A stretch of 64,000 bases of DNA from Henricia sp. BOLD:AAB3569 (taxonomy: Eukaryota > Echinodermata > Asteroidea > Spinulosida > Echinasteridae): assembly GCA_037783545.1 (NCBI GenBank), contig JBBELK010000691.1:139001-203000 (forward strand), written 5' to 3'. The position numbers were made by a program, and so were the translations under genes. The notes under the pieces were generated by a model. It saw only the letters and a list, made by a program, of their open reading frames with translations. It had not been told where the DNA came from and did not search any database. Below are positions 11,331 to 44,700 of this stretch, one piece after another. Numbering within the stretch: the stretch's first letter is position 1; each line of letters starts with the position of its first letter.

Positions 11331-11472
11331 TGCATGTACAAATACAATTTCATTTGAATTTGTTTTTCAATATGCGAAAAAAATCTGTATAGCTCTGAAT
11401 ACAATAATTCCACTGCAAAATATTACACAAATTATCCAAAGTCTATATAATAGTACAGCTTATAGGCCTATA

Positions 11473-11620: not shown

Positions 11621-11786
11621 TTGGTTTTTATAGAAGTTTGTAAAACTCTGTTTACCATACATGTATTTTACGAACTGTTACATCCGAATAATGCAAATAC
11701 TATTATGCTAAGTACTTGAGAGAACAAGATAACCAAAATTGGCAATTACAATCTGTTTATGGCATCACACTATTTCATTCATTAAA

Positions 11787-12018
11787 TCCATTACACAATG
11801 ACTCCAAGAATGCCACACAAACACATTTTCATGGGTGGCATTTTTCGTCAACCTTTACTATTTGTTCCCCCATTGTGTCTCAAACATCCAAGGAGTTTCC
11901 AAGGAATTCCTTTCAGTTTAGGGGGAGTTGGTACACTCGTTAACAAAAGGGAAAAGTGTGTTGAGGTATAGGGGCGTTGGGGGAGGTGGTGTCCCTTCGC
12001 CACATATCATGCTGGGTA
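11787..12018. repeat. Dispersed 200-bp repeat
   Basis: Shares CAAGGAATTCCTTTCAGTTT and a CATATCATGCTGGGTATA end (inverted) with 33393-33590 and 17521-17735. Copy B at 60212-60445. Confidence 0.55.
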
Positions 12019-15000: not shown

Positions 15001-15147
15001 ACTTGCACGTTAATGCGCATGCGTGTTGCCAGGATGCCGTTTAACCAGTGGTTGACTAGTCGTGAATGGAACTTGCTCTTAGTGGCTGCTTTCTTACAAA
15101 ATCCAAGTGCATTCAAATTCTCTCACAAACAATTTATTGCAGTGACA
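12019..15147. other. Intergenic DNA without recognisable genes
   Basis: AT-rich, only short unrelated open frames; same in copy B (60446-63705). Nothing resembling an exon, RNA gene or TE protein was found. Confidence 0.4.
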
Positions 15148-15583
15148 ATGCATAGTTCTGACCTGTCCATCAAGCCGAACCCGCCGACCAATCACAACAG
15201 AGCTAGCAGACATCGCCCACATAGGTCAAAGTGCATTGCCTCACAACAACACAACAACATACAGTTTGTACAGTGTTGTATGCGGTGATCCGGGTGAATT
15301 TTTGGTTTCAAGGCCGGACGATTCGCTGTTCAAAGGTAAGAAAGCATGTATTTCATGATGATATGACATACCTGTATTTCTGGCCCTTTACTCAGTGTGT
15401 TCTAAGATAACTGTTGACCCTAAAACATGAATACCTTTGAGTTTTCTCCAATGAATCTGTGTTTTCTGTTGAAAGTCCCATTGGTTTGTGCAGTGTGTGT
15501 GGACATTTTGAGGGATAGCGTGTGAGGCATAGCAACAATATCCAAGGGGGCGGATTTAACTGGGCAAACTTAGAACTATGCAT
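15148..15583. mobile_element. MITE family M1 next to gene B 3' end
   Basis: Inverted orientation relative to 249-699; ends ATGCATAGTTC and GAACTATGCAT. Also present at the paralogous place from 63706, so it predates the duplication. Confidence 0.75.
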
Positions 15584-17663: not shown

Positions 17664-17703
<40 letters not shown>

Positions 17704-20700
17704 CCCTCTGTCACATATCGTGCTGCATATGACTTAAGCACCAAATTTGCAACCATGTTTGTCCTCACGGACTGCCCTACAATATGGTCTATACTCACAA
17801 GCAGTGAACCACGATGGGGTATTTCTCTTCATGCCACTTCAGAGTGAGTTCCATAAGAGTCAACATGCCTTTCCAAGAGTTGGGAATCTCTTGATCAGAA
17901 TTCCAGTCCTGGTATTGGAACTGACAGATGGTTCGTGGCGGCTCAGACTGAAATAACGTGAACAAAAATAAAATAATTATCCTACAACTTTCTTTATCAT
18001 GTTATTGTATTGGAGAGTTTCTAATTGGGAATTAATGGAGAAATAGATTTGTTTCATTATCAATCACAATCATTGTTATTAATTCTTTGTGGTACTGAAA
18101 CCAAGGAGTTTCTACCGGATCTTTCTTGTTTCTAAGTTTGAAGGTGTGGCTCAAGATGCCTTTGTACTGTGTCGTCTGCATCGGCTCAACAACAAGCGAT
18201 CCAAATGCCATTGGTCCATCTTCGGGCCAATAGCGCTCCATCGTCTGTATAAAGGAAACAAAACCAATTAGGGCGCGTATGTTTCGGACGGAACTCGTTC
18301 ATTTTGTGCAGATTCTGATCGACATCTGTGATCTCAGCGACCCTTCTCATGAGGTGTTTCAGTGCAAAATTCAAAGTATTGCAAAGACTTTCGTGTGAGT
18401 TAACTGTTTGGTTCCAATTCTCAATAACAACACACAATACAAACAGATTGAGGCTGTTCGTTTATTTTCAATAAATGTCATGGGTGAAATTTGATTCAAA
18501 AATTTGACACATCTCAAGATCTAGATTCGAATCTGTGACACAAACACTGTACCGACCAAAATGACCCAAGGACTCTGTTTTTATTGATTCTTCATTGGTG
18601 AATACAATGTATTACAATGTAAAACAGCCTCTTCAATGGGTACCAAGCTCACTCTTTGTTACGAGGTTAACAGCATTAACAACGTACTTTCAGAGAATGA
18701 GAGAATAAAGGTATGGCTAGCAGGTCTTATACTGTACGTTTAACACCACATCAAAAGGTTAACTTGCTGCAAGTTTGACTGCCAAATGCAACTCCTGGTT
18801 ATGAACTTTGAGAAGAGAGTTGAGAATGTAATAAGCCAATAGACCCTATGCAACGGTGGCTATGACAGGGGCAGGTTTTGATATTTAATTTATGTGACAA
18901 CGGATCCACAAAGTGCCTACTCGAGCATAAAGCAGGATGACAAATTGGCTGCCCTCGTCATGGCCAGTGGATTCAACATGACAATACAGATCGCTCTATT
19001 ATCATACGTCATGCGCCACATGGGCATTGGCATCTGGGTGGTGATGTAACGCTGCTTATTGTAATATCCCTGCGACTGCCACCTGTCATGGCCGCCTATG
19101 CAAAGAGTCTATACTTACCACATCGCTAGCATCAAGTGGATTCAGCATGACAATACAGGTAGCTTTATTATCATACACCATGCGCCAAATGTCTGCCACT
19201 GTGTTGGGCATTGGCATCTGGGTGGTGATGTAACGCTGCTTCTTGTAATATCCCTGCGACTGCAACCTGTCATGGCCGCCCATGCAAAGGGTCTATACTT
19301 ACCACATCGCTAGCATCAAGTGGATTCAACATGACAATACAGATCGCTTTATCATCATACGTCATGCGCCACATGGGCATTGGCATCTGGTGGTGATGTA
19401 ACGCTGCTTCTTGTAATATCGCAGTGACTGCCCCCTGTCATGGCCGCCCATGCAAAGGGTCTATACTTACCACATCGCTAGCATCAAGTGGATTCAGCAT
19501 GACAATACAGGTAGCTTTATTATCATACACCATGCGCCACATGTCTACCACTGTGTTGGGCATTGGCATCTGGGTGGTGATGTAACGCTGCTTCTTGTAA
19601 TATCCCAGTGACTGCCCCCTGTCATGGCCGCCCATGCAAAGGGTCTATACTTACCACATCACTAGCATCAAGTGGATTCAGCATGACAATACAGGTAGCT
19701 TTATTATCATACACCGTGCGCCAAATGTCTGCCACCGTGTTGGGCATTGGCATCTGGGTGGTGATGTAACGCTGCTTCTTGTAATATCCCTGACAAACAA
19801 ATTTAATTAAAATATCAGTAAAATAATGATGATGTCACACAAGGCAATTTACAAGCAATCAATTCCAAGCAATCTCCAAGAAGCAAATGCATTCGCATTA
19901 CAATTTTCACATTGTTTTCTTTGTAATATCAATACATTGTCACAAAAAATGTCTTTGTGCTACTCAAGCATTCCTGTAGCCTACAGTGCTGTAAGTTGCC
20001 TCCAAGTTGCCTGTAAAAATTGCCTCGTGTGACTAGGGCCTTAGTGGACATAATATGATTGTGTTTGCGTGCTGTACACTGCACAATATATTAGTTTTAT
20101 GGAACCCATTGGTCAAATTACATGAAGCTTCCACCTAAACATTGAGAAATGTACAGTGCTGGGATTTGGGATGCTCGATGGTTCAATGGTTAAGACATCT
20201 ACCTCGTAAGCAGGAGGTCATGGGTTCGAGTCCAACCCAAGCATGCTACATGTTTTTAGCACGTTTCTTGGGACAAACACTTAGTACCAGGTATATAGTG
20301 CACATCGTATATTGGAAAATCTCTTCAGCATCATACATACTAAGGCAATAATTCTCTTATTTATTGTTGGTTGGTTGTTTGTTTGTTTACAAATCCTGTA
20401 ACCATGGCACGTTACAAAGTGGACTTAAATATCTTACCGGCAGAAAGTGTGCATTTATGTAGTTTGTGTCATCCGCATACGCCTTCGTCATTAAGTATGG
20501 TCTTGAACGATCAGCTGAAACAAAAAAAGTAGTGGGAATAACCATTAATAGCCAGGTAGCTGATACAAAAAGGTATTTATGAATGGAAATAATTAAGTGG
20601 TTGGCCGGTCTTAAACAGTACATTTTAGACTGGCTGAGGCCATTATCGGCGTCCGGGGTTCGATTTCACAAAGCGTTATGATGCATCGCAACAGCAGCTG

Positions 20701-23700
20701 TGATTGGTAAGCCACTATTATGTGCATCTCACGTAACATGCATCTCGAGCAGTTTCGAGTTATAAATCGTTGTACAATATAAGAACAGCCAACTACACAT
20801 TTAGTCCCTCATTAGTGGCCAAGTAGTTGATAATACAAAATCTGTGATTAGCAAGTGGCACTTTTGCAGCAATATTAACTACTTTTTTTGGAGGTCGTTG
20901 TATGAATTTAGATGTCATGTTTCATGAGTTGACGTGAGCAATGCAATCTACCGTTTTATGGAAACAAAATGGTGATTATAGAATACTAAAGATGGTTAGG
21001 GACCATCCATACAGTATATACACACGAAGGGGGCAAAGGGGAGTCAGAGCCAATGCTTATGCCAATGTTAAAGTCAATGGATGACGTCACAAACTTTGCC
21101 AAATAAATGGGTAGGGGTGGGGAGTCTAAAAAGTCGGCATTTCGTGTGTATGTACTTAATGGATGGCCCCTTACTGGGTCTACACATAAACCAGTGAACC
21201 GTTTCCTTGCACTTGAACGCTTCAATGCAATGGACGCTGCAGATTACCAGCGAAAGACTAAACCCAGTGTAACTCTGACGTCACACTTTAGCAGTCTATT
21301 AAGTAGGCCTAGGATTTTGAGCATGATATAATGAAATGATAACTGATGGACTTTACATGGGATGAAGTCGGGATAACGATTCTTGTCTGCATTCTCGGGA
21401 AGTTGTCCTGATTTGGAGCTTTCGTTGCCACGTCTCATGCGAAGTTTCACCAATGTCTGAATTATGCACCAATCACACAATCAACATGAAATGTAAGCAC
21501 ACTGATTGTTTGTTTAAATTGAGGCATCTATAACATGTACATGATCATGGTTCCAATTCCACCGGCGATGCCTATGCAGCTTTCTTTTAATTTACACTCA
21601 AGTGTCAAAATTCAGTGACAAGTTGTGTTTTTCAGGATCTTCTGTTAAAGATTAAATTCTTTGTGAATGTGGCACTCTCAGTATTACATAAAATACTCTA
21701 TTATTGATACCCAAAGAAAGCCTCAGAAAATAGTTTCACCAAATCTTAAACACTTAGAATGAGGAATGAAAATACTGAAAGCTGAATAAAACAAAAGCCA
21801 TGGCATTGATAAATTGTTTTTGAATTGGATTCGAGTACATGGATTGCAATAGACAATTTAAAAGCAAACATAAAGCATACACAGTGGCTGCAAAAGACAA
21901 ATCCCATAAACCATTCTGGAATCACTGGAATCATTTACCTTGAACTGTTTCTCCAAGCCCGTCTCAGTGGAGCCATGTTCAGTCTTTTTTAGAGCCATGA
22001 GTCGAGTATGAAGGTCTTGGATTTCGTACGTTGTGACACCACTCAAATAGGAGGCCAAAACCGCATCAAAGATGAACTTGTATTGCTCCTAGAAATGAAT
22101 TCAGTAAAGTAAAACTCAAAATCAATCATAAATGATGCAGTATTCAGGTCAGGATTATATAACGTAAATGTCGGCATAGTCGCCAGGTCCGCGAGGTCAA
22201 CACCCTATTCATCAGCCATTGTTCATCAACAGGGTGGCGAGGTCATGGACCTGGTGACTATACCGACATTTACGTTAGAAGTAAAACACATACTTGATGT
22301 AGATGTGGTCTCCAGAGAATGCACAGTGTGATGCAGCAATATTGAGTGCACGCTATTTCTAAATTTAATTTAAAAAAATTAAAACAAATGCAGTCCAGAT
22401 ATAAAGGGTGCTATCACAACCTGGTACCCCATGATGTTGCTTCAAGTGTAAATAATCACACACCCAATTCATCTGGAGCCAATGCCTAGCAGCCAACCGT
22501 CTGGTTGCTTTATGCCATTATCTTCTACCGCAAACACGGTATTGATTCTGCACTTCACACTTGCCGCATGCACCACATAGCAACAACAATGTATTCTGGT
22601 CAAGTGGATACTAAGTGTGCATGTGAAAAAAAAGCATGTCACCTTACAAGACGATATTCACGTGAAAAAAAGGCTAAATAAGTGAGGACTTACCGGTGTC
22701 TGTACCATCATGATGCGTTTCTGTCTCATGAAAGGAAGCATGTCAGCACACCAGACGCTATTTATGTGAAACATGCCAAAGGCTAATCAACTTAAGACTT
22801 ACCGGTGTCTGTACCATCATGATGCGTTTCTGTCTCATGAAAGGAAGCATGTCAGCACACTAGACGCTATTTATGTGAAACATGCCAAAGGCTAATCAAC
22901 TTAAGACTTACCGGTGTCTGTACCATCATGATGCGTTTCTGTCTCATGAAAGGAAGCATGTCAGCACACTAGACGCTATTTATGTGAAACATGCCAAAGG
23001 CTAATCAACTGAAGACTTACCGGTGTCTGTACCATCATGATGGGTTTGTGTCTCATGAAAGGAAGCATGTCAGCACACTAGACGCTATTTATGTGAAACA
23101 TGCCAAAGGCTAATCAACTTAAGACTTACCGGTGTCTGTACCATCATGATGCGTTTCTGTCTCATGAAAGGAAGCATGTCAGCACACTAGACGCTATTTA
23201 TGTGAAACATGCCAAAGGCTAATCAACTGAAGACTTACCGGTGTCTGTACCATCATGATGGGTTTGTGTCTCATGAAAGGAAGCATGTCAGCACACTAGA
23301 CGCTATTTATGTGAAACATGCCAAAGGCTAATCAACTTAAGACTTACCGGTGTCTGTACCATCATGATGCGTTTCTGTCTCATGAAAGGAAGCATGTCAG
23401 CACACCAGACGCTATTTATGTGAAACATGCCAAAGGCTAATCAACTTAAGACTTACCGGTGTCTGTACCATCATGATGCGTTTCTGTCTCATGAAAGGAA
23501 GCATGTCAGCACACCAGACGCTATTTATGTGAAACATGCCAAAGGCTAATCAACTTAAGACTTACCGGTGTCTGTACCATCATGATGCGTTTCTGTCTCA
23601 TGAAAGGAAGCATGTCAGCACACTAGACGCTATTTATGTGAAACATGCCAAAGGCTAATCAACTTAAGACTTACCGGTGTCTGTACCATCATGATGGGTT

Positions 23701-26700
23701 TGTGTCTCATGAAAGGAAGTATGTCAACACACTAGACGCTATTTATGTGAAATATGCCAAAGGCTAATCAACTTAAGACTTACCGGTGTCTGTACCATCA
23801 TGATGCGTTTCTGTCTCATGAAAGGAAGCATGTCAGCACACCAGACGCTATTTATGTGAAACATGCCAAAGGCTAATCAACTTAAGACTTACCGGTGTCT
23901 GTACCATCATGATACGTTTGTGTCTCATGAAAGGAAGCATGTCAGCACACTAGACGCTATTTATGTGAAACATGCCAAAGGCTAATCAACTCGAGACTTA
24001 CCGGTGTCTGTACCATCATGATGCGTTTCTGTCTCATGCGGTAGATGAAGCCCAACACATCAATTTGTCCCTCTGCTTTCAACTGTTCCAGCATAGCATC
24101 AAGAGCTATGAAGGTGCCTGTGCGACCAACCCCAGCACTGCAAACAACAAAATCAAAGCACAATGATCAAACATGTGCATGCATTCCTGACCATATTCAT
24201 TTTCAGACAAAGCCTTCCCGACCCAATCAGGTGTAAAATGAATATTTAATTTAATGTCTTAAAGGCTTCAATAAACTTCAATGTACAGCCCGTAGGATAA
24301 ATTGCATGAAGCTAAGTGGCTTCCACCTAAACATCGAGATACATAGGTAGCTATTGCAAGTTAACGACCCAAACCAATGCATAGTTCCGAGTTTGCCTAG
24401 TTAGCCCCGCCCCCGTGGATATTGTTGCTATGGCTCACACACTATCGTCAAAAATGGCGACACACTACGCACAAAGCAATGGGACTTTCAACGGAAAGCA
24501 CAGATTCATTGGAGATAACTCAAAGGCATTCATGTTTCAGGGTAGACAGTTATCTTAGAACACACAGAGTAAATAGGGCCAGTACAGGGATGTCATATCA
24601 TGACATACGTGCTTTCGTACCTTTGAACAACGAAACGACAGGCCTTCAAACCAAAAATTCACCCGGATCATCGCATACAACACGTACAAATTGTATGGGG
24701 CCAGCAGTACATTTCGCGTGATCATGTTGTTGTGAGAAAGAGCACTTTGACCTATGTCAGTGATATCTGCTAGCTCTGTTGTGATTGGTCGGCGGGTTCG
24801 ATTGATTGACAGGTCGGAACTATGCATTGGCCATGATACCTATCTTATTTTCCGAATTGGTTTAAACAAAATAATTTCTCATTAGATGAGAATACACCAA
24901 AACGGTTGACTTGAAGAACTTGCTAATGAAAATGGAAAGACAATTGGTGGCACTTCCAGAAACAACAGAAAGGTTATCCAATCACATTGCCTAATAGGTA
25001 GCCTTGTAGTAAATGTATCATTGATTTCTTATAAACAGTCTAGGGTATGATTTACCATTTACAATGGTACAACCTACTTACCTGCAATGAGTGAGAGTGC
25101 GTCCTGTATTTTGTTCAGCATCAACTACACGTTTGAAATTCAGCAGTGGGGTTGGATACTCCGGTGGTTTCATGTCAGGCCATGTGGTGTAATGATAGTT
25201 CTTCACTACTCGAATAGTCTCCTCATCATCGGTCTGTGTAAGTAACAATACAGAGTTAAATATTTGAATGGTTAAAGCTGGTAGTAATTAGTCTTTGCAC
25301 AATGACTGGCGGCTTAAATTCTTCACCTTCAAATGGAAATGCAGTTCAGAAAGTCCACATTCTATGTTGTTGTTGCTAACTGGTGCATGTCATGGACTAG
25401 CCTGTTGGTTGCTTTGTGCCTTTCTATCCTACAATGGACATTGTATTGATTCTGTATTTTACACCTGCCGCGTGCACCAGCAGCCAATTTTACAAAACTT
25501 ACGCAGTTGCCTAAGCCCACTTGCGCAACATTTTATTGTGTAAGTTGCGCACCATTCTTCCAAAGATAACACGCAAGCTATGGGCTTGCGCCATTTGTCA
25601 AAAGTTGCGCAAGCTGCGCAATGTTTCGTGAAATCACAATATATATGGCAACAAAAATTTAATCTGGTCATCTCAATAGTAAGTGGACATGTGAAAGGAA
25701 GTACTTCAGTATATCAGGGGCTATTCACATGAAACACTTAAAAGGCTAATTCAGATCAGCTCTCTGAAATGCTGGCTTCGTACCTTGGTTATCTTGAAGA
25801 GGCGAATCGAGTAGTCCAGAAAATGCTGTTCATCGACAATGGTTACATTGATATCAGAGTACGCGGTTGTTCCAGTATCTGGCCAGTACTGAAGACATTT
25901 CATCTGTAGGTTAAAAATTACAAAACATGTTTATTGTTACTAAATTTTTCACCATTATTTTCCTGGGGGAAAAAGGGGAGGACCTCTTCATGTCTACTTT
26001 TGAAATTATTCTTTTGTTTTTTGGGTAAATGTTGATTATTACTGTTATTACACACATTTCTTATGGTGTCTCATCACTATGGAAATGAAATCACCAAACG
26101 TGGGATGAGAGAAATCACATTGTTCTCATCAGGAATCGAACCCAGGACCTCTGGCACCTTTGCTATGCTCTACTCACTAAGCTATGAGACAGTTTTCCCC
26201 CCAACCTTTCTCCAGGAGTTGCATGGATGTGGTATATTTGAGCTCATCCATGTTTAGTAATTTTAAGCAACTTTTCCCCAGCAAGCTAGTTTGGGTCTTT
26301 ACTCTTAGAAACTGCACCTGCCTCTACAAATTATCCACAAAAGCTGTATCATTTTAAACCCACCTAAGTCCTGAAACGATGGATATAAATACTCATATTT
26401 TAAGCCCAATGAATAATTATACCTTTCCATTTTCCACTGGGTTGGTGAGCATGACAATCTTATCCACACCCAGCTGCCAAACCATTCGCCAAATGTCCTG
26501 CAGGGAGCCTTTGTTGGGACCTACAGGGGACAAGAAAATGTGTTCAGTGCACAGATATTTAGCTTTTTATAGGCAAAGGTTTATCCAAGTTTACAATCAA
26601 GAAATAAAAACTTTAATACTGAGAAAGGTTTATAACCCAAAACAAGTGTCATTGACTCAAAGACTGATTGTTTTTCCTTCAGTACGATTCACACGTTGAA

Positions 26701-29700
26701 TAAATGTAACTTTTGTATGTTAGCAGTAGAAGTTATACATTATACAACATTTAGAAGGAGAAATACTGGTTTTGAATCATACCTAAGTCAGATGAAGGGG
26801 TTTCATGGCATTGTCTTGGGGAATGAAGTATTTGACTAGCTATGCTATAGGGATGATTAATATTAAAATAACAATATTTTTGGACTTTTAAATTTCTTGA
26901 CTCTTGCCAATTGTATAAGCACTTAATAAGGTGCTCAGAGTAAAAACCTGGTAAAGCCTCAATAATTACCTTGGCTTGCAATGTACTTGTCCTTCTCCTT
27001 GTACCCCTGAAGATAAACATCAATGCAGATATTGGTGAATTAAAATTTACATTAAAACGATGTCAATACAGACCAGTCAATGATACAAATAGGGATATTT
27101 CTCATTGTCAAGAATGAGAAACAGTAAACTTACATCGATGTAGCAGGCATTTATGTAGTCCGAGTGTGGGTCATGTTTCAGCGGCTCCAACACAACACGA
27201 GAATGGTCATCTGCATGTCACAAATGGAAAGTCGTGTACAAGTGCATGGCAATGTGTCATGGTTCAAACTTCCTATTTTCACATGTTCGAAAACACAAGT
27301 GCAATCACTTCACACATTGATTCATGTTGGCGTTTTAAATGGATTAATGAAATGAGCAATATGGAAGAATTCTGGACATTTTATCTCTGTACATAAAAAA
27401 ATTTCTTCAAGCATGTTGGTTAAAATGTTATGGGTCACAGTACACTGAAATAAACAACTTGAAACTTACAGGCAATGACATTTCCAAATCGGTTCTTTTG
27501 CTTGTTTTGTGATTTCCTGGCCACAGTCCACGGATGCATCTGACCATCTGGCAACGTCTTTACACAACACAAAAAATAACTTATTACGTGCACTACAAAG
27601 CACAATATATTAACAGAAAAAGCTCGATGTAAGTTTGCACTGTTGTTTCAAAATGAATAATAAGCATACAAAGCGAATTGATCGAGTTACGTCGGTAACA
27701 GGCCTGTACCTTGGCCGTTGACCGTCCTGGCTGGCGGAGGATTAAAACGGGATGTGGCCTCAACGCCTCACCGGCATGAGCTTTGATGATGATGATAGTA
27801 AGAGCAAAAACACACCCTAATTAACGCAAGCTAAGTCACCTTCCATCAACATACCTTATAATCCGCTTTGAATCCCAATTCTCCTGCAGCGTCCTTCGTC
27901 TTGATGTAATTCGCCAGCTCACCGATCCGTACCGGGGGTGGATGAGTGAACGGTTGAACTTTGATCTCTTCCGACAATGATTTGGTGGCAGATGCTTGTT
28001 CAGTAGACATTGCACCATTCCCTCGCAACTCAATCGACTCCAGTGGCACACTCGAATCGCCATTGTGTGTTTGACCTAGGCAAATCAACATCAAGTTGAA
28101 GAAACTATGAATATACATGACCACAACATTACAATGCGCATAATCAGTGCCTGATTAAAACATCGTAGTGGTGGATGCTTGTTCAGTGGACATTGCACCA
28201 TTCCCTCGCAACTCAATCGACTCCAGTGGCACATTAAGCCCGCCGTACACCTTGCGTTCTGACTACGTTGCAACTGCACAGACACGCCAAAATTTGAGAA
28301 TGTTCGAAATTCTGTGATTCCATTGCGACGGACACGTACACAAAATCGTGACCACATCGCCATCGGAACGCATCACAAAACCCGCACACCTTGTGATGCG
28401 ACTGCACAACATGCGCTATCATGATCGGATCACGGACGAAACGCAAGGTGTACGGCCGGCTTTAGAGTCACCATGCATTGTGTATTTGACCTGGGAAAAT
28501 CAAAATCAAGTTGAAAAATACACTAATAACACAAGACTGCAACAACATTATAATGCGCATAATTAGTGCCTGATGAGATGTTTAAATGCATGAGTTCTAG
28601 ATACAACTGTTTATTAGACAGAGTATCACATTTAGGAGTTCAGATAAGTCAAGCGCATTTTGGGGGACTTGGGGGATTTGTACATATTTTAATTAAATTT
28701 AAAGTTGTACTTGGTACACACCATGTAATGTATCTACTTCACTGCATATATGACCCTTGCATCAATTGAGGAAGTAATTGAACAATTATCAGGTTTCATC
28801 ATATTGACATAACTTTGTAACCAACTCATTTCTAAACCAAAGCACCCTGAACCCCAACTATACATTACAGTCTTTGATGAGTTGTAATTTATGGAATACA
28901 AGATCCATAAAGAGCATACCTGCTGCACCATCCTGGTATCTCTTCTCAAGAGAGTTGTCACTGGGACGTTTCACTAATTGATTGCTGCCACCTGCTGGTG
29001 TTGCACTGGTTCTCCTGGTCAATATAAAGCAAACTCCCTCAGTGTAATAGATGGTAAAGGTACACAAAGTCTTAAATTAACATGTAATAGACTACTCAAG
29101 TGTAACATCAGTTGCTTGGGTAACTGGTTCTAATCATTCACTGGTAATCTACAGGAAAATGGTTCACTGGTGTTAGAGTAGACCCAGTAACCTTTCCAAC
29201 ACACAAAGGGTGACTTGTTCACTTTAGTACTCTGTAAACCCACACAATTAGCTGGCGCAAATCTATGCATCTTCAACAATTAACCCAAGATTTTCAACTC
29301 AATTGCCATCAGCTAAAAAGTAAGAAAGAAATACCTCTTATAGACAATGATGGCTAGAACGATGGCAATTAAGACAATGACTAAGATGACAATGCCCACA
29401 ATAATGCCTGTATTGCTGCCGCTGGATTGAGGTGTCATCACTGCAAAGGAAATTGAAAAAAATATGACAGTACGTTAGATAGTTGCCAGCAAGTTCTTGC
29501 TTGGGGAGACATACACTATGAACATCTAACAATGGAAATTGGGCACACACCATTGTTACTAACAATGGGGTTACAATGAACATGTACATGTTCTTGCTCA
29601 TAGTGATAGCTCAGTTCAATAAAAGAAGGCCATCAAGGAGAACAAAAATGTCCAATTACAAAATCCCTCAAATTCGCCTTATTGTTAACCGGTCAAATAA

Positions 29701-32700
29701 TGGACTATGCGTATGTTTAGACAATGTGCTAAACGAGATATAGCTTTGGTTCAACTAAAAATGATTTTTTTTTCAGTCACGTCTAGAGTTGGCCTACATA
29801 AACCTCTTTTAGCAATAAAATTTAGAGTGCGTTACCATTACCTAACACACTGGACCAACGGCTTTACATCCCTTCCGAAGGATGGAGCAAGTGTGGTTGA
29901 GTGCCTTGCCCAAGGACACAGGTACCGCAGCCGGATTCGAACCCGCAACCCCAAGTTTTCACCCATGATTGCGAGTCAATGGCCCTAACCACTCGGCCAC
30001 GGTACCCCCAATACATCATGGTACCAGTACAAAATTAAAATGCATGGTTGGTTGGTTGGTAGCTAATATTTTTTAAGAAGCTGAAAATTACCTTTAACAT
30101 TTATTTCATCAGAGTAGGTCACATATCGTTCCTGTGATTGAAAAAATAAAGTGATAAACTTTGAAACATATGCAGCAGACTCCACATGGTAGAAGCTTAG
30201 AGATGGGTCAACACAATGACTACCTTAATGGACTCATTCTTCACAAGATGTCTTCCTTGTGTCACCCTAATGGCCATTATGTGGGTTGTAGTTGTCTTAA
30301 CGTTTATATGAACTCTAACCTTGCACTTGCTGTACGTAACTCCGTGTCAATTTTTTTGTATAGTGTAATTAAAATAACATTTAGTGAGTCTGCCGGCCTC
30401 CTCTTGTGGTTATACCATTGTTACTGTGGTGTATGTCTATTGTGACGTCAAGTAAACGCATTGGAGATACACCACACTTTTCGTTTGTTAGATTAGTCTA
30501 TACAGTAATTGGCCCATCCACTGAAACCTTGTGATATGTACAGTAGTAGCTTTATAATAGAACACTGTTGATACAACATGCATCTTAAAACAAGGACAAT
30601 TTTAGGTCCCAATCAGGCGCGGATCCAGAGGGGGGGTTTTGGGGGTCAAAACCCCCCCCCCCCCTGCTCCGACACCAAAAAATATAATGTAATGCATTTT
30701 TTGCGTGTCCGCCTGTCCGAAACAAGCAGACATAAAAATCTGATGGGCAAAACCCCTCCCTGGTGGCAAAACCCCCTCCTGGAAAAATTCCTGGATCCGC
30801 CCCTGCCAATCCTTTGTTCTTCATTGTTTTCATTCCTAATAATACATGTACAAGGTTCCAGTTAAAAGGTAATTCTGCAAAGTCTCAAGGACTTGAGAAT
30901 CGACTTTAGTAAAAATGTATACATGTACTCTTTGTTTATATCTATTAAACACCATCTGTTGAAAATTGGTCGTCATTAAGCGTGCATCCTGTTTTGCACA
31001 AATTTGGTTTGTTAATGATGCTGAAGGTCACAAAATTCAAAGACGATTTGGCATGCGACCTCGTTCTTGAACCAAATTTATGTAAAACATGATGCATGCG
31101 CATAACGCCGGGCATGTTTCGGTTTGTTGTGACGTCAGAGGGCACATTGTCAATACCCACCGTGCCATTGCCCGTGGTGACCGATCCAACTTTCAAAGTA
31201 TAGTTCCCATTAGCCTGAAGCGGTGCATTGTAGTAACCTCCATACATTTGACCATCTCCAACTGTGAATGTTTCAGGTACATTGCCCTTAGGTATCGCGG
31301 CAGCGATGTAGTTATCAGGTGAATCTTCATAGCGTCTTGGCTCAAGGGCATCCCGCTTTGACATGGGAGTGAGTTTCTTAACATCGATGACGAAGGATCT
31401 AAAATGGGAACATGATTGTATCGTACGGGTCTTCAAAGCACCATTACTTGATTTGATTGGGAGTTGATTACTTTTTTAATGTTTGGCAAAGTGATATTTA
31501 AAGCAGGTACCAGAACACTCATCTTCCGTCTCACAATGTGGTTAGCAGACAACATTGCTGACCGCATTGTGTCCATTATTCCTGTGGCAATACCGTCTTT
31601 TGGACCATCCACTCATTGAGCATTTGATTATCTATAACCACACGCATACCGGCAACTTCTACTTACGTGGCAAAGGTGACGTCATTTCCTGTGAGTAAAC
31701 TGCTGAGGTCGATAGTCACGGTAGTTTCAGTCGTTTTGTCAGGCAACGTTTTGGGTGAATTTGGTTTAGGAGGATCTGAAGAAATGTTGCGCAAAATGAT
31801 CAAGTTAGTTAGGAATTTACTCTCTTTCTTTCTATGTACATACCATTCTTCAAAACTTGGGCTTTTTAGGAGACATCCAAAATTGTCAACATTTTCACGG
31901 TCGTACAAAGCATACGGAAGGAGGGGATCAAAGGCCGTGTATGACTTTACATGCAATGTAAAATGATGACATTTGATGATACTGGCAGGAAAAATATGGA
32001 TCAGTTCCATTTCAGGGGGAGAGAGGTCGTCTTGAAAATACTACGCTCTCTACATCCATCCAAATGTTGACAAACTTTGCACTAATTCACATTGCAAACA
32101 ATTTCCTAAGGTTATACATGTATATGCCAGGTCTTCAAAATTGTAATGATCTTGTCTACTTACTTGTTAACACTTCTGTATACTCCACGGCAACTGAGTA
32201 ATTTCCTGTAAATCTGTGGTTCTTAGCCGCAACTCTGAACTCATATTTGCTCCCTGGATCCAGTAAATCTTGTGTATATGGTGGATTGTCAGCGTCAATT
32301 GTCACATAGTCATTCTCTGGAGTAAAATCGGGGATGTGACGTTTCTCCAGGGCTCGGTACTCAACCTACAATATGAGAGAATTACAGTTAAACATCATAG
32401 AGCACGTGGGAGCACGTTTGGTCTAGTGGGTACACAGCCGTGCTCGTAATCAGAGGGTTATGGGTTCAAGCCCCACTTGTGCCAACGTGTCTGTGGGCAA
32501 GACACTTAGTCTCAATTGCCTCATCAACCCAAGCGATATCTGGGGAGCTGTTAGGGGGAATGCCACAATCTAAATGCTGATAGAGTTGTGCGCCTTGGCC
32601 GGCTGCCGGCCTAGTTGAAGCGAAATGGTTCTGATGATTTCCTGACGGCAGCGGTAATTAATGGTAACAGCGTCATGATCTATATGGAATGGCGCTATAT

Positions 32701-35700
32701 AAAAACCTGCTGTTATTATTATTATTATAGCACAGTGGCCACTTTTTAAATAGGATATCAAGCATTTTTATTTATTTATCTAGTTTTCCAAATTTAAAGC
32801 CTAAATATGATATGAAGGTTCTTTTTGACAAGATGTTACTCAACATTATTATTAGTGACGTTTCACTGCTTAGCTAGCAGCTTCTTCAGACTGGCAACCC
32901 ATACCACTCAACGCCATCCTTTTATAGCTGATTTGCATGAATGTCATTTATGTGACGCACTCTTCAAAAATGAGATTGCACAGGCCGGGTCAAGTTTTCA
33001 TGAACAAACCTGTTGCATTGTTTAACTTTGTAAATATTTTTATCAAATTTATTCTCGTGTTTCTAAATTCATCTCCGATTGTCAATCCTATCATATACCC
33101 CATTATGTACAAGAAATTATAATTAATACAATTGTGATTTCTTACAAGGTAACGAGGAAGTGGTCCTCTAAGGTCAAGCGGCGATTCCCAGTTGAAGGTT
33201 AAGAACCTCTCACCCTTGTTGGTGACGCGCAAATTGCGAATTAATCCAGGAACTGTGGCGATAAGAACATCCCAAAATGTTGACAGAAATGATGGCATAC
33301 ATATGCATAGACGAGAGTAGACTGAATTGGTAATTGTAACTTAAGTAGCAATTGCCGACCTGCAGAAATTACAGCTAGAATCCACTTGCACTTATACCCA
33401 GCATGATATGGGGCCTAAGGACTCTCCCTAATGCCCCTATGACTCAACACACTCTTTCCTTTTTATTAATGCACCAACCCCCCTAAAAACTGAAAGGAAT
33501 TCCTTTGGAGGAATTCGATAGACACAATGGGGGAACAATGGTAGGGGGAGGGGCGTACCCTGGCCCCATATCGTGTTGCATATGCTTGCACTTGGCCACG
33601 TTTGCGATTCTAGCTTTCCAAAGCCTTAAAATGGCCTTAAAAGGGACCTTAAAATATATCCGAATGTGTATGAATTGCATTACTCATCAAAGCCTATCTG
33701 CAGAACCCACTGGAGTCCACTTGGACCTGGCTAAGTTTAAAATAATAAAAAGTATATGCTGGCAATCAAAAAGTCCCAACACGACCGTACAAAAAAAGCT
33801 TAAAATGTGCAGTATATACAGGTGGTCAAGACTTCTGGTCACTTCTCGATACACACAGCCCACTAAATTTGAGATTATAATTCCCTGTATTGAGCTTTAG
33901 GTCTGTATTACAAAAATCGTTGTAAATAACAATTACATCAGTTTACAGCACATTTATTATGCTTTATCTAGAGACAAATATGTGTCAGTCCAGGAAACTG
34001 TCTTACCTCCTACTACAGTGTCATTAATGGCGTCACTCCAGGGACCAGCTCCCACTGATGTTATGGCTCGTACCTGCAATGACAACATACATGTAAAAGC
34101 TTTAAACCATCTGAAATATACTATACATCTAAAATATTTATACCAAGCATCTAAACTTTTAAGTAAAGTATGATGTAACATCTCTTGCAAAGATAACTTG
34201 ACAGAAAGAAAAATTTCAGGTCGAAGAGCAGCTCAAATAGACAGACTACTCGTACTACAGTTTGAGTTATGAAAATAAATTACTTAAGTGTTTTTCTGAA
34301 TATGGAAAACTGGAGCTTATTGTAATTACCTGAATAGAATAAGTAGCATTTAGGGTCAGGTCGGATATTTTATGACGCAGTGGTGTATTGCCAATGGGAC
34401 GAGTCACACTTTGCAACACAGCATCACCTTGAATCTTCTGATACCAAACATCATAGTCGATTATAACGCCCTGTGGAGGATTAGGCTCCGCCCACACAAT
34501 AGTGAGTGATGTTTCATCGCCTGATTCAACCATGACATTCAGAGGTTTTGTTGGCTCTGTGAAATCAAAAGAAACAATGCAACATTAAAGCCCAATACAA
34601 CATTTGGAGTTTAAAAAAAACAAACAGTGAAAACAAACAGTGTTGACAGCAATTGTAACAAATGCAACATGATTTTTTTCCTGTGAAAATGCACAAAAAC
34701 CATGCATGGACTTTTTAAAGGTTTTCTGAAGTATTACTGCATTTATGTGGCTGAAATTTCTACAAGGCAGTTTACCAACATTATTCTTAAGTTGTGTAAT
34801 GTTTTGAACAGTTTTCCAATCACGTACCGTCTTTAAAAGAAACTTACAAATATAAATAGAAAAGAAACAATGACATTCCCCAATCCCATTATGTAAAATG
34901 GATAACTGTGCCCCTACATGTATAAAAACTGGCAGATTTGTACTATGTACATCCTTACCTTATATACTACACACAATTTGCCAAGAGTCACCAATATTTT
35001 GATACATAGTTTAATTGAAGGTAATATATAAAATTCTTTATGGTAGATGTCTCATTGATTCTTTATGTACAAAAACAGATTACAAAACATTAACATCTTG
35101 CATTCAGAAATTAAAATATCCTTTTCCACAAATGCTAACATAAAACTTAGGCATTCGTCGCAGTATACCAAGAAATGCAAAAAGTGGCCCCTTACCCGCT
35201 TCTGAAGTCCTCACAATGACGCCTTCGCTGAATGGTCCAACGTCCTGTGCCGTTTTGGCAGCTACTTGAAAGCTGTAGTCCGTGTATGGAACCAAACCAG
35301 TAATTTTAACGGATGTCACAACAGTATTTGATTGGTTAGATATTATTTGAGATTCAACCCCAGTCAGTTTGTACTGGTAGCCAATGATGACACCAACTAC
35401 GCTTTTACAAGGAGGTTCCCTCCAGGTGAATGCAAGCACACGCCTCACAACAGAGGTTGCTGCTATGTCAACAGGGGATGTTTCCTGTCCTGAAAATTAA
35501 AAAAATAAGATTGAAAAATCTGATAAAAAGGAATAAAACAGTCATCATTGGTCACCTTGCTATGGAGATAATGTTTATCATTTCTGTACCTGTAGGCTAC
35601 TGCACAATCACCTATGATGGGGCTATTACGTGCAGGTGATGCTGCCATGGTGCTGGTCGGTAATTAAATTGTGAGTTGCGCACAATTATAAATTTAGCCG

Positions 35701-38700
35701 ATGTTTACCTTGTCAAGTTGGGTTTTGAAGGCATTCAGTGTGGATTGTTTTTTTAACAGAATCAGGAAGAAGATTCCATTCAGAGACTGTCCATGGATAT
35801 AATGAGTGGAGGTAATTATTTTTGTTGTCCCAGATACATTGAAGATTCAAGGTGCTGTTAGCTTGTCTTGTAGTTCGTCTGGTGGCTAATTGCTCACTAG
35901 ATAGATGATTTTGCAGTTGGGAAATATTACTCGGGATTAGACCATGATTTTCTTTGTAGACGACACACAGTACAGACGAGCTCTAGTAAGTATATCTTCC
36001 AGAGGGTCCCAACCTACCGGTATCTCACTGAACATTGCAGTGACTACACTTATGAACGACTGTAATCCCTTAAAACAAACCTAGCTGCACGTCCCTGGAC
36101 TTTTTCAAGCACGCTAATGGTATTACATTTCTGGAAAACATCTAACTTATTAAGATTTCTTTTTTGGGGAAAAATTTGTTGATATACATGTAGGTAACTG
36201 CATCATGCTCCCTTGCACGTTCAATGGGCAAGGGAGGAGTGATGTACTGCCAGTGAAAAGATCCATGGTTTTCACCGGGCGTGTGAATTGAGTGCATAGC
36301 AACCGATAAAAAAGAATGACGCACCGAGTCTGGGATGTCCACCCTCGCCCATGAATGTACAAATTTAAAGTCCTGAGATTTACGTTTCAGTGGAAATGCA
36401 TATTGTACTTGTATACTGTACAACACATTTTAATGTTTGTGATTATTTCTTTGTCTGGCCATCTAATGTAAGACAATTAGTTACAATTTTTGGCATTTGG
36501 TATAATTATAATTTATAACATTATCAATTAAGCCAGTTCGGGGTTAGCTTCTGCGCATGCGTCAGATCCCCGAACAAACTTTTGACAAAGATCGTTTGTA
36601 CATTAACGCATGATCCACAATGAAAAAACTTGTATGATGCGGTGAATTTGTGTTTTTGACACCAAATGATAACTGATAATATAGAGCTCGGATACTGATT
36701 CAACCTACTGTAGATCTGTTTTGGGGTTATATGGGCGTCTAGGGGTGGAATTTTTGAGATAAAAGTCGAAAATCTGTGGTTACGGTATTGCGTGAAGCCG
36801 AGCGTAGTTGGCGTCGCAAGTCATGGGACTCACTACCCATGCCTGGCAACGCAATGCATGCTCGGTTTCACGCAACCACAGATTTTCGTCAGTTATCTTA
36901 AAAATTCCACCCCAGACGCCCATATAATCCCAAAACAGATCTACAGTAGGTTGAATCTGTATCTGAGCTCTATATTACCAGCATGTCAAAAACACAAATT
37001 CGACGCGTTTTTTGAGTTTGAAGCGGAGAAGAACTTCAGAAGTTCTCATCTTATTTGACATTTTTCTCTTCTATGTGCAAACGACATTTGACCAATGACA
37101 TATCACAACGCTCCATGGGCTAACACCGAACTGGCTTATTAACCATTCCATTCCAAAGCATATAAAACATTTAAGTTACTGCAGCTGATAGTTTAAGAAG
37201 TCAAAGGACTGCCAAAATCTTACTTGTACACTGGCAATTACTTCCCAAGTACTGGGAATCACAGGCGCCGTTTAGACATTCCCCAGTGTCCTTGTTGCAT
37301 GCTACTCCCGATGCACAATGACAAGTCTGCTTACAGTCAGCTCCATACATCCCCATAGAACATTCTGTTATTTAGAAGATGGCATACATCATTAGTCTAG
37401 AGCAACAGGAGCTAGCAGAGGTCATCATGCATGTTCATTGAGTCACTCTCCATGCACAATGACAAGTCTGTTTACAGTCAGCTCCATACATCCCCACAGA
37501 ACATTCTGTTATTTAGAAGATGGCATACATCATTAGTCTAGAGCAACAGGAGCTAGCAGAGGTCATCATGCATGTTCATTGAGTCACTCTCCATGCACAA
37601 TGACAAGTCTGCTTACAGTCAGCTCCATACATCCCCACAGGACATTCTGTTATTTAGAAGATGGCACACATCATTAGTCTACAGCAACAGGAGCTAGCAG
37701 AGGTCATCATGCATGTTCATTGAGTCACTCTCCATGCACAATGACAAGTCTGCTTACAGTCAGCTCCATACATCCCCACAGGACATTCTGTTATTTAGAA
37801 GATGGTACACATCATTAGTCTAGAGCAACAGGAGCTAGCAGAGGTCATCATGCATGTTCATTGAGTCACTCTCCATGCACAATGACAAGTCTGCTTACAG
37901 TCAGCTCCATACATCCCCACAGGACATTCTGTTATTTAGAAGATGGCACACATCATTAGTCTAGAGCAACAGGAGCTAGCAGAGGTCATCATGCATGTTC
38001 ATTGAGTCACTCTCCATGCACAATGACAAGTCTGCTTACAGTCAGCTCCATACATCCCTACAGGACATTATGTTATTTAGAAGATGGTACACATCATTAG
38101 TCTACAGCAACAGGAGCTAGCAGAGGTCATCATGCATGTTCATTGAGTCACTCTCCATGCATAATGACAAGTCTGCTTACAGTCAGCTCCATACATCCCT
38201 ACAGGACATGCTGTTATTTAGAAGATGGTACGCATCATTAGTCTACAGCAACAGGAGCTAGCAGAGGTCATCATGCATGTTCATTGAGTCACTCTCCATG
38301 CACAATGACAAGTCTGCTTACAGTCAGCTCCATACATCCCTACAGGACATTCTGTTATTTAGAAGATGGTACGCATCATTAGTCTACAGCAACAGGAGCT
38401 AGCAGAGGTCATCATGCATGTTCATTGAGTCACTCTCCATGCACAATGACAAGTCTGCTTACAGTCAGCTCCATACATCCCCACAGGACATTCTGTTATT
38501 TAGAAGATGGTACGCATCATTAGTCTACAGCAACAGGAGCTAGCAGAGGTCATCATGCATGTTCATTGAGTCACTCTCCATGCACAACGACAAGTCTGCT
38601 TACAGTCAGCTCCATACATCCCCACAGGACATTCTGTTATTTAGAAGATGGTACACATCATTAGTCTAGAGCAACAGGAGCTAGCAGAGGTCATCATGCA

Positions 38701-41700
38701 TGTTCATTGAGTCACTCTCCATGCACAACGACAAGTCTGCTTACAGTCAGCTCCATACATCCCTACAACAGGACATTATGTTATTTAGAAGATGGCATAC
38801 AACATTAAGCTGCCTTTCCATAGGTCCGTTTTTCATCTGCATTGCGTGAGCGTTGCAGTTGCATCACTCCATAGACATGATACACATGGACGAGTGCAGT
38901 GCAAAGGCAACGTACGCAAGACAGATGAAAAAATGACCTATAGAAAGCTGTTTTTAGTCGACAGCAACAATAGCTAGCAGAGGTCATCATGCATGTTTAT
39001 CAGGTCACTACATACATCCCCACAGGACATTGTCATATTAAAACTATAGACCGTATCAAATAGCTGCCATTTCGTGGGGCAGTTTCTTTGTTCCTTGAGG
39101 ACATGCATATAGTTGCATATTGTGCTTCCATTGTTGAATGGTTTAAGTAACAAAAGGTGCCCCACAAAATGGCAGCTATTCGATACGGTCTATCAGTGCC
39201 AATGCTGGACATGTCAAATTCATTGTGTCATGGTCACTTTGCTTACTCTCTGTGCAGTCTAGTCCCATATAACCAGCAGCACATGAGCAGCCATAAGGAT
39301 CAGGGAGACAGAACAATCGTCCTCGGCAGGCGCTGTCGTGTGGATCGGTGGTGTTCTCTGAGCAATGGAAACTAGCACCTTGCCCAAACACGTTACGGCC
39401 GTGAACTGTAGGTACATGTATCAGGCAAATTGAAAATAAATTAAGCTAGAATAAAATAAAAAAAAGCAAAATATGACAGTTTCACCATGTAAGTGTACCT
39501 GGTTAATTGCCTTAGAATGTGAGAAACTGTACACGTACATTAAAAACAATTTCATTTTCTTCTCAATTTAATATGGTAATTATTCCGTGATAAAAACTTT
39601 ACCTTTTTCACAGTATATTCCACTGAATCCCGGAGCACAGATACAAAAACCACTCTGGTCATTACACACACCACCATTGTAACATTGACGACAAGTAATT
39701 GAACAAGATGGGCCCCACATACCCGCAGGACAACCTAGCAGAGAGAAACAGCAAAAGCAAAAGATTTTAAAAAGAAACCAAACAAAAAGCTTCGTATCCA
39801 GCAGTAATTATTTATAATTTTGAGAGTGCTGTACTTGTGTGATGCATGTTTATTATCTATGTGTAATTTAATACAAGTTGAGATCGAAAAAGAAAAGCGT
39901 GAGGGGTGGGGGTGCAGGGAAGAGCTAGAGAGAGGGAAGAACACACTCCCATTTCAATAGTTCATGGGAGTATAGTCCAGGTGGCTTCATGGACCCTAAA
40001 TATCACATTTTTAACATTGGGATGGGCGTTTTGAGAATTTTAGAATCTCAGTCCCAAAAAAACATATTCTGGATCCGCCTATGTTACCTCTGACAATAAG
40101 TCTCATGATGCCGTGAAGTGGCTGGTTTTCTTGGCCGTCTATGAAGCAGCTATACACTCCTGCATCTGACGTAGTAACATCAGCGATAGACACACTCAGA
40201 TGGTCATCCCAGAGTGGCATGGCAGATTCGTCATGCTTCCATCTGTAGTTGGTGTTTGGTGAGTTGACATTCCTCATCTCTAGAGCCACTGAATCACCGA
40301 TATTTGCTGTCTGTGTGCGCTGAGCGGGTCGAATGTGGACTACAGTGTCTGCAGTGACATTTTGGTAATATTATTGATTTGTAAACACGTCTATTCTCCA
40401 TCATTATTCATTGACCAATGAATGAATGCTGCTAGCTAGTATCCTGCATCTACCAAGTGAGACTTACATTTAAGGAAATGTACAATTTTTGAAAGGGTCC
40501 AATTTTTTATTTGTGGGCAACTTCTTTCGGGCATCAAATGCTTGACACAAAATGTCACTCATGAAAAAAATGTATAAAATAAACAACCTATATAGTGCAT
40601 TTTTGTTACAGTTTGTGAAAACTGCACAGCCGGGGACAAGTTTTCACGAACTGACATCGGAGTGTACGCACGTACTCCGTACTCAAAACGCTGGACTCAA
40701 AACGCATGAATTTCGTTTTCCAAAAACTGACACCCAAGTAAACGTTGAATTTATTTGAAAAAAAAATAGCTTTAAAAATGCTTGACAAGAATGATATCAT
40801 CCTTATACTTGTGGAATATGGTTAACATTTGACCGAAACACTCCCTAATTTGTTAATTTACGACAGACGTTAGTTTGTGAAAACAAAAATGTTGGGTGTC
40901 AGTTTGTGAAAACACAATTTATGTGCTGACGTCATTTTGTACCCGAGGCGAGCACTGAAGTGCCACTGTATGTCAATTCGTGGTGTACACCAAAAATAAG
41001 CCTTATTTAAGTGAACATTCAAGTCATACCATCTTTTGGTAGTATAATGGCTTGAATCCTTGTAGCCACAGTGCCTTCGCCTTCCTTCTTATCTTGCCAT
41101 GCATCAAAGTAGAACACCCCAGTCCTGTCAATTCCACCTGTAGCTGGTAACAGAAGACGTCTGCCTGCACATCCCAAGGATGAGTCACTTTCCTCCACTG
41201 ATCCTTGAGGAAGTCCAGAGCCGCCTCCTGTTGCTAACTGCCGACCGAATGACACACCAGCCCCAATATCAGTGGGTCCTTTATACGCTGTGAGGGCGGC
41301 ATTATCGTCTCCGGTTGAACCAAGGAGGGCGGGAGAGGCCACAAAGGTGAAATCATCTGTACAGTGCATATACAAAAATCAACCTTGTACTGCAATATCT
41401 TTGAAAAACTGGACTGTGTCAGGCCAATAGACCTTTATCACGGTGCGTCCATCTTTGTCTTGTTCCCCATATAACGTATGCGCGACCGCACGATAGCACG
41501 TGTAATCTCCCGTTGTTTTGAGCAAAGATTAGTACCGCGTATATATATGGAGTACAATGGTTTTGAGAGAATAACTGTTTGCGCTGCGCGTTTTGTGCGC
41601 ACATGTCATTGTGATGCACACAATGAACATTTTCAACACCGGGCCAAACTATTTTTTCTGCAAGCCTATGGTTTGGTTGCGTTCATTTTAATAGGAGAAA

Positions 41701-44700
41701 AAGGAAGATGGCCGCACCATTATAAAGGTCTATAGACCCTATTCACATTTGAACAGTTTAATCGTATCCCATTAATGAGTTCTTTAGAATACAAAGCCTC
41801 AACTTGAAGACGAGGCTTGGAATGCATAAGTAGTCTTGCACCTTTCCAGTCAGCATTTTGCATTCAATAAAAGTGATTCTGGATGTCCGATTAAAGCGTT
41901 CAAACGCGTGAATTGGGTCTATGGCAAATTGGAAATCATGTCAGGTGACAACGTACATGCAACCCTTTAATCTGACAGTTTAAATGAGGATGTACCAACA
42001 GTTGATAGCTTGAGGCGTCAAGCTTTCCCTCATCTCTTGCAGGAGATACTGATTACTTTAAAGATGTCCACGCGTTTTGGGTAGGCACCTCAAAATTAGT
42101 TTTTTTGGAATTTGTATTTTTCTAGAAACCTAAAAGTTATTCACTTTCAAATGAGTCATCAACGAGAGAAAAAAAAGGAAAAACAAGAAAAACAATTGAC
42201 CAACACTTAGTTATCGTCCGCAACATGCAGTGCCCAGCGCGCCCTTCGATCCGAGCGGGCGGCCTGTCGAATCTCCTTTCTTCTGTTTTTTCTGTCTCAG
42301 AAAGTCTTCAGAGACAGAAGAAAAAAGACTTGACAGGCCACCAGTCCAGAGGGCGCGGCGCACCATAGACCAAACACAGGAAGTCAGACTTGGGCAAGTC
42401 TAGGTAAGGTGCAAAAATGGCCGTATAAAAACGGCGTTTTTCACAGGGTTGCCGATGTGTAAAATACAAAGTATGATTTTTTGTTGTTGACATAAAGTAA
42501 ATGCTTTAAAAATTCATTTGGAGAAAAAAAAGTCAAACCACGGACAATATAACTTGAATGTATCACACATGCAATAGGCCTCTTTCTCGTGACATTGCCT
42601 GGTGAAGTTTGATTTTTATGGTTGGGATTCATTTTGCATACTATTGTGGTCATTAAGAGCACCCTATGTATGCATAGAATCTGCATATACATACAAAAAC
42701 CCCTATCTAAACACATACAAGTACATGGAGTACACTATAGGCTGTGCCCTATTCCAAGTTTGCAACATCCCTTTAATTAAACATAATTAAGTCACCATCC
42801 TGACTGCTTTACATGTACTGGCATACCTTCTGGTAGATCACATGGTAACGGGATGACTTCACACAGAGAAAGGCTCGTTGTTCTGTCGATGTTGATACTG
42901 ATGTATCGTGCAGTCACACCATACGGCGGGTTGCAGTCAAACTCTATCCAGTTGTTTGCAATGGCTTGGTATTGGGTAACTGCACGTTCACACACTGTAT
43001 TCAGAGTCGGGTCTGTGCTCAAGCCTACTCGTACAGTGGCACCTACGTACCTTTCCCTAACAGTAGCTGTGTGTGGGCAGTTCAACAAGAAACTCATTAC
43101 TGCATACCTTTACAACAATAAACAGCTTTAAAATGCATAAAAATTTCCTGTAATAAACTACTATAGGGCGGGTTGCAGTCAAACTCTATCCAGTTGTTTG
43201 CTACGGGTAACTGCACGTCCACACACTGTATTCAGATTCGGGTCTGTGCTCAAACTTAAATGTACAGTGGCACCTTCAAATCTTCCCCTCTCACCAGCTG
43301 TGTGGGTGCAGTTACAAGAAACTCATTACTGCATACATTCACATATTAATATTACAATAACAAACTGCTTTAAAATGCATAAAAAACTGCCTGTAATAAA
43401 CAACTATAAAACCAACTATTTTCCACTCAAGTGGCAACCTTTATAAAAAATAATGTTAACATTATGTATTTTAAGTAGGCCCAATGTATTCAGAAAATGA
43501 TGTCTATAACAGTGAGTATGATATTTAATAAACAAGAAGTAAATTATTTCAATGGTGATTGTACTGTAACTAAGGATGGGAATTTACGGTTAATTCAGAA
43601 TCCGGTTATCAATTCTTTCAAGTGTCGGTTAACCGTTCGGCCGACACTAAAGATTGTTGCTGGTGTTTATAGATGCATGTGCAATATGTACACAACACCC
43701 CAATATAATCGTTGAGCCTTTATCTGGTCAAAATTTTACTACGACCCCATATAAATTTATTTCAATTTCATGAAGTTATTACAGATAACCCTCTGAAAAC
43801 CATTGTAAATTCTTTAAAATTGGGTTTCATTTAAACGTTCGGCAAAACCGGTTTTTAAATTTTGTTTGGTTCAACGTCCCATCCTTAACTGTAACTGTAC
43901 ATGCATCAGTGTGAAAAATATTAAATTTTGCTACTGGTATAATGTACAGACAGCGCTTTCACAAATTACTACATTACAAACTTCACAGAGCTCATAAGAC
44001 ACTGGACGTATAAACTGGCCAGTGTTGACTGGCTAGTTTGAATCATTTAAAAGTGAGTAATATAACTATTGCCAAAGTAACAATGGGAAAAGGGCAAACA
44101 ATTCTCATTTTTTCCATAAACCTTGACATGAGACAAAGAAATTTCATCTTACTGTAGTCTGCATCTCTTCCCTTGACAAGGATTTTCCTAACGCACTGAT
44201 TGGACGTCAGCTCCATTCTCCACCACGGGCTCCATTCAGATTCTGATAAATGAAAATTGTAACTTTAGTATATAGAATGATTATTCCTGAACAAATCAGA
44301 TAGGATTAGCTCTACTTTTCCAACAGTAAGGCCCGTTTCAAATGTCGCGCTTATGCAGTGTCAAACACAATTTAATTTAGCACGACGGTAGCACGGCTTA
44401 AGCACAGCAGTGGTTTCAAATGTCAAACTTATTACAAACTCCCAGTCGAACTTAAATACATCCAACATGGCGGATGAGTCGTGTGCACGTCATGGACCTT
44501 GTGCCATTGTAGGTTGCCATTTTTATTTTTTTGATGTGCTTGTTTGTTGGTCATTTTTTTGCTCGCAAACGCGCTGTGAGCATGTGCATTTCTAATTGTG
44601 AAAACAATTGCGGACCAACTTTTCTATAGAAAGTGTTAGGCATATGTAGTATTAAGGGGAGAAATCAAGAATTGAATCAGCCTCTACTTACAGTCATCAC

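Follow-up and report, generated by a model that had tools for sequence, protein, structure and literature searches.

Minisatellite-like tandem repeats that extend over a 5' or 3' exon-intron boundary, known as mirages, have been described in the amphioxus genes Adh3, BflGb6 and BflGb9 (both globins) and TnC (PMC3087553). According to two reports, their units measure 10-160 bp, AG or GT is kept in many of them, haplotypes differ in copy number and regular splicing is undisturbed (PMC3087553, PMC3902484). Repeats of 60 and 108 bp over splice sites of lancelet PGBD5 have been likened to mirages (PMC3902484), and tandem genomic duplication has also been described as a route to intron gain, in the Rogers model and in potato RdRp (PMC4974935). 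We analysed a 64,000-nucleotide stretch of a Henricia sp. assembly (740.7 Mb in 2104 contigs), C691:139001-203000, referred to here as the window, which contains a minus-strand gene, gene B, that probably encodes a receptor-type protein tyrosine phosphatase (RPTP). Three exon edges of gene B are arrayed in tandem: the whole of exon 34, the tail of exon 30 with its donor, and the head of exon 12 with its acceptor. We read these arrays, with a probability of about 0.82, as minisatellites of the mirage type, formed by tandem duplication across an exon edge, altered in length by unequal exchange and tolerated as by-products.

We placed 34 exons of gene B, a set that excludes exons 6 and 22 in the numbering of the original prediction. 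All have AG/GT borders and each is matched, some partially, in two tandem paralogues on the same contig, A and C; since the borders and the paralogue matches agree, we regard the exon boundaries as real. When spliced at native sites, exons 1-18 gave 986 codons with no stop, and exons 20-36 ran without a stop across the whole of PTP domain one and the greater part of PTP domain two. The two blocks were translated separately because the donor of exon 19, where the frame breaks, is uncertain. A Pfam search of gene B returned two F5/8C-type stretches, three fn3 domains and two PTP domains (E 3e-119), together with an Ig-like match below the cut-offs and no match to any EGF model; the EGF-like modules and the membrane span were assigned by eye.

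Tandem Repeats Finder (TRF) reported three long-period arrays in the window, at exon 34 (18966-19790, period 184/352 bp), exon 30 (22669-24038, 109 bp x 12.6) and exon 12 (37304-38807, 141 bp x 10.6). Our recount of the copies in gene B arrived at the same numbers as the original prediction, namely 4, 12 and 10 extra copies of exons 34, 30 and 12 (window positions of all exons, copies and array segments given here refer to the minus strand). Native exon 34 (19655-19789; PTP D2, GYYKKQRYITTQ...DASDV) has its own acceptor and donor and reads open when spliced to exons 33 and 35. The four extra copies of array 1 occupy 18966-19654, which brings the exon-34 heads to five, and the last copy is truncated and has no donor. 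The unit of 184 bp (one of 168 bp in B) consists of the whole exon and a GTAAGT donor, followed by about 40 bp of a dispersed element resembling a miniature inverted-repeat transposable element (MITE); the rest of that element, with terminal repeats TAGACCCTTTGCA..GGGTCTA, adjoins the array at 18841-18965. Native exon 30 (24002-24137; end of PTP D1, SAGVGRTG...MMVQTP) is identified by paralogue matches and an open joined frame, as is native exon 12 (37224-37364; EGF-like by eye). Array 2 adds 12 copies of the exon-30 tail and donor (22694-24001), for a total of 13 donors, in 109-bp units of 36 nt exon tail and 73 nt intron, the last 58 nt of which are the start of a dispersed element. It is followed by the native start of intron 30 with a diverged dispersed element (22478-22693), a segment near-identical in paralogue A, which lacks the array. 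Array 3 comprises 10 further copies of the exon-12 acceptor and exon head (37365-38807), making 11 heads, in 141-bp units that run from the end of intron 11 through the acceptor and about 54 nt into exon 12. A decayed, older outlying fragment of this unit lies upstream (38954-39058) beside a short inverted-repeat element (39046-39193).

The resemblance to mirages extends to several features. The repeated unit spans an exon-intron boundary, here at the 5' splice site in two arrays, one of which copies the whole exon, and at the 3' splice site in the third; the complete native exon stays at one end of the array; and splice signals are present in many copies (in B, with natives counted, 13/13 donors of array 2, 4/4 donors of array 1, whose truncated copy has none, and 9/11 acceptors of array 3). 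Copy number is unstable in both, as seen between haplotypes for mirages and between paralogues here. Normal splicing has been reported for mirages; in gene B, the genome sequence shows an open frame at native sites. The published cases that we found are cephalochordate and ours is a starfish gene, which is a difference of taxon and not of structure; other points of difference are the presence of three arrays in one gene, a paralogue series reaching 49 copies and a dispersed-element end in two of the units. The original prediction knew of no such system described in an RPTP gene. The kind of system is in fact described, as mirages in amphioxus, while for an echinoderm or an RPTP gene we found no mirage-like report in the open-licence PubMed Central literature. 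In the Rogers model, tandem duplication likewise copies splice-competent sequence; at the present locus existing introns have been lengthened and no new intron was seen.

Copy numbers form a series among the tandem paralogues A, B and C: exon-34 heads number 3, 5 and 7 (counting truncated last copies, that of A being in two fragments), exon-30 donors 1, 13 and 32, and exon-12 heads 7, 11 and 17. Further exon-12 heads were found at a fourth locus, D (6), and on C1875 (49), C221 (1) and C384 (1 at each of two places), and C230 has one full exon 12 with degenerate upstream copies, the latter recognised by eye. The arrays might be false expansions introduced during assembly: the copy numbers are those of the assembly, and one published amphioxus mirage was mis-assembled in a draft genome (PMC3087553). 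However, several paralogues share units that differ in their variants and higher-order structure, and because the units found in A, B and C are the same but vary in copy number and point variants, a single mis-assembled spot would not explain the arrays. We consider an artefact highly improbable. Unlike the exon-edge arrays, minisatellites outside the placed exons of A and C (for example at C691:131690-132356 and 241325-242268; 34 bp x 19, 323 bp x 3 and others) were each seen in a single paralogue.

B and C have the same consensus for the array 2 unit and share unit types CAGAAACGC and CACAAACCC, which suggests that the array most likely had a single origin. In paralogue A, exon 30 runs straight into the native intron, the stretch at which the arrays of B and C end. 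The flanks of the array place A and B as sisters, at distances of 2.3% and 1.3% on the two sides with C 7-30% away, whereas exons 31-33 group B with C (2.2%, against 6.5% for B and A). We take this switch from the nearby A-B pairing as a sign of exchange, or gene conversion, between paralogues. Either A would have lost array 2 by contraction or B would have received it from C. Elsewhere in this series, intron 11 of another paralogue (C1875:15674-29603) is apparently swollen to about 14 kb and holds 48 extra exon-12 heads in four blocks, and at C230:967900-969100 an old copy of the exon-12 head is apparently interrupted, as judged by eye, by an insertion with CCTGTGGG-like flanks. Also by eye, a comparison of A, B, C, C221 and C230 shows the copied head of exon 12 (its first 54 nt) to be far less divergent than the uncopied tail; either selection or conversion by array copies could account for this.

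Splice signals were scored with a matrix built from 31 other exons of gene B. The extra splice sites that had been proposed are there: arrays 2 and 3 carry donor and acceptor sequences, respectively, equal to the native ones, and array 1 carries extra donors. With natives counted, the donors of array 2 score 11.7 in 13/13 cases in B and 31/32 in C, the remaining one scoring 11.6; the native donor median of 8.7 is reached by 0.47% of 1693 other intronic GTs. Donors of array 1 are intact in complete copies (the native and three others in B, the native and five others in C), and the complete exon-34 copy of paralogue A has an altered exon end. The copied acceptors of array 1 are broken or weak, at -8.3 to 2.9 compared with 6.7 for the native site. 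In array 3, acceptors that have an AG score 3.2-4.3, similar to the weak native acceptor (3.9), and the AG is kept in 9 of 11 in B, again with the native counted. Array 1, by copying an entire exon with its donor, might look like a tandem exon duplication that supplies alternative exons, yet its copies have no strong acceptor, one copy in B has lost a net 16 nt and the final one is cut short, and in arrays 2 and 3 the exon is copied only in part. Mutually exclusive exons would each be complete, open in frame and bounded by an acceptor and a donor, which the copies seen here are not, and we regard this explanation as barely conceivable.

A second possibility is that the arrays act as functional decoys whose copy number tunes splicing towards intron-retaining or truncated receptors, such as D1 without D2. 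A stop follows within about 10-23 codons when the frame is read past the donor of exon 30 or exon 34, or entered from an exon-12 decoy, and the extension past exon 30 ends soon after D1 and that past exon 34 inside D2, as such a role would have it; the uniformly native strength of the array 2 donors (13 in B, 32 in C) also speaks for it. In its most specific form, a dozen or more donors of native strength 3' of exon 30 would hold U1 and slow or divert splicing, some transcripts would end after D1, and paralogues with 1, 13 and 32 donors would differ in truncated-receptor output, a scheme to which we give very little credence. Against a decoy function, donor number varies from 1 to 32 among close paralogues, the acceptors of array 1 are broken and the exon halves of array 2 show no constraint. 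Nucleotide diversity in the latter is 0.030 among 12 units of B and 0.036 among 31 of C, compared with 0.022 and 0.025 for the intron halves; since the exon halves are at least as variable, there is no sign of selection as exon. We therefore consider functional decoys in general very unlikely. The array copies look as unused copies should, splicing is predicted to ignore them, and their splice sites are best read as by-products without an established role. The minisatellite of the human interferon-induced gene 6-16 (IFI6) likewise has a unit with a donor site and so presents multiple donors; it differs in its short unit and in that its decoys are reported to be used. Separately, a CAG within the copied exon-30 tail could define an in-frame microexon of 27 nt (KRIMMVQTP). 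It scores 3.9 where the AG is kept, the AG is lost in 4 of 12 copies in B, and we regard this candidate as only remotely possible.

Dispersed elements offered another explanation. The original prediction had placed a transposon end beside the splice site in the blocks of arrays 1 and 2, and both units do contain a dispersed-element end close to the donor. The element of array 1 starts at intron +8 and belongs to a MITE-like family with 1204 first-look candidates, present in at least 38 other places at 80-85% identity (40 of the 1204 candidates were scored). That of array 2 starts at +16 and belongs to another dispersed family (3264 candidates, the array units included); over its 58 sites the unit has 5 differences from an eight-copy consensus and the native intron 15-17. 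Two single partial copies that had also been described were both found. One repeats the head and acceptor region of exon 7 (43160-43408; 242 bp upstream, 79% identical) near native exon 7 (42827-43066), and was seen in B only. The other repeats the head and acceptor of exon 23 (28168-28574, at offsets of 183/415 bp; native exon 27855-28075) and is split by a repeat that also occurs elsewhere (about 28343-28464). Both native exons are matched in the paralogues, and both partial copies are old. Landing of a transposon end next to a splice site could in principle trigger tandem duplication over the exon edge, and the element starts at +8 and +16 speak for it. Element ends are, however, absent from array 3 and from the exon-7 copy. 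The family with most copies, that of the exon-12 unit (up to 49), is not dispersed (12 first-look candidates, with matches only on C691, C1875, C230, C221 and C384), nor is the exon-7 copy (7 candidates), and in a genome rich in dispersed repeats two coincidences are unsurprising. Thus, of the shared element-triggered mechanism that had been put forward, the extra splice sites and the element ends in units 1 and 2 hold, and a single trigger common to all arrays is not upheld; we judge such triggering unlikely.

We favour instead an origin like that of mirages. A short segment over one exon edge would be duplicated in tandem, with repair by microhomology or replication slippage as the probable route; the array would then grow or shrink as its units exchanged unequally. 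The series of copy numbers among paralogues with the same units, the single exon-30 boundary of A, the open frame at native sites, the early stops on reading into a decoy and the lack of constraint on the exon halves of array 2 all speak for this reading. By eye, the junctions of array 1 (about 2-bp CA), array 2 (2-bp CA) and the exon-7 copy (TATRGT) are simple. A full exon with both splice sites would survive each edge duplication and all added DNA would be intronic, which would explain why the duplications are tolerated; splicing at native sites would go on producing a complete RPTP.

We also asked how often repeats would meet an exon edge by chance. In gene B, a unit of 109-184 bp placed at random covers an edge with a probability of 0.18-0.28, and 5 of 6 local repeat loci in B touch one. 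Post hoc, the position of all three long arrays at edges gives P of about 0.011, and the five edge loci alone, with the sixth locus omitted, give P of 0.001. This apparently strong enrichment weakened when the repeats of A and C were added to the count. Local repeats number 7 in A, 6 in B and 8 in C; collapsed to 14 independent loci, they include 5 at edges where 2.5 are expected (P = 0.08); the proportions are 5/8 for segments of at least 100 bp (P = 0.037) and 3/8 for arrays of at least three copies (P = 0.11, with or without a 25-bp array of gene C, the latter version having seven arrays). Loci were collapsed and lengths chosen by hand, and the null model was taken from the exon layout of B only. 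Flanks without a gene model hold four repeat loci in 23 kb beyond C and none in 33 kb beyond A. Compared with repeats confined to introns, the enrichment at exon edges is weak (P 0.04-0.11).

Several of these observations weigh against the interpretation of the arrays as tandem duplications kept as by-products. The mild excess of local duplications at edges could mean that edges are favoured. The donors of array 2, at 11.7 compared with the native median of 8.7, make decoys that score as well as native sites, and some use of them is conceivable. Moreover, 15-17 mismatches and 10 gap columns separate the intron halves of array 2 from the native intron, whereas the exon halves are identical to the native exon in A and B and differ at 2 of 36 positions in C; divergence of the one alongside identity of the other requires that the native exon converted the copies or that the array arose in some less simple way.

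What is new here is an echinoderm case, the occurrence of three arrays in one gene and the copy-number series among paralogues. A repeat class known from lancelets is thereby extended to what looks like an echinoderm, a new phylum for it. The series of 1, 13 and 32 donors and of 1 to 49 acceptor-side heads constitutes a natural test of how great a load of perfect decoys can be carried before splicing fails, and lets one ask whether arrays of this kind give rise to new introns. If the state of paralogue A is a loss, it suggests that an array can shrink back until one clean boundary is left.

A Pfam search for other PTP genes, in which 150 of 187 candidates were scored, gave 133 matches; among the matches scored, none outside C691 showed tandem copies of a PTP exon by eye, although this inspection would overlook pieces no longer than the array 2 ones. 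Near the 3' end of gene B there is a run of 34 G (window 17667-17700), and inverted repeats lie inside its introns at 22160-22277 and 36673-36981. A large direct duplication flanks the gene, by eye at about 4000-15400 and 48000-63900, and holds the 5' exons of the tandem paralogues A and B with upstream DNA in which there are apparent remnants, also seen by eye, of non-LTR (long terminal repeat) reverse transcriptase. The assembly contains a mitochondrial concatemer with a period of 16,221 bp, which translates sensibly with AAA as Asn (code 9). Its 16S, nad2 and nad1 block lies on the strand opposite to cox1, the protein genes having been named by eye, and the gene order is asteroid-like.

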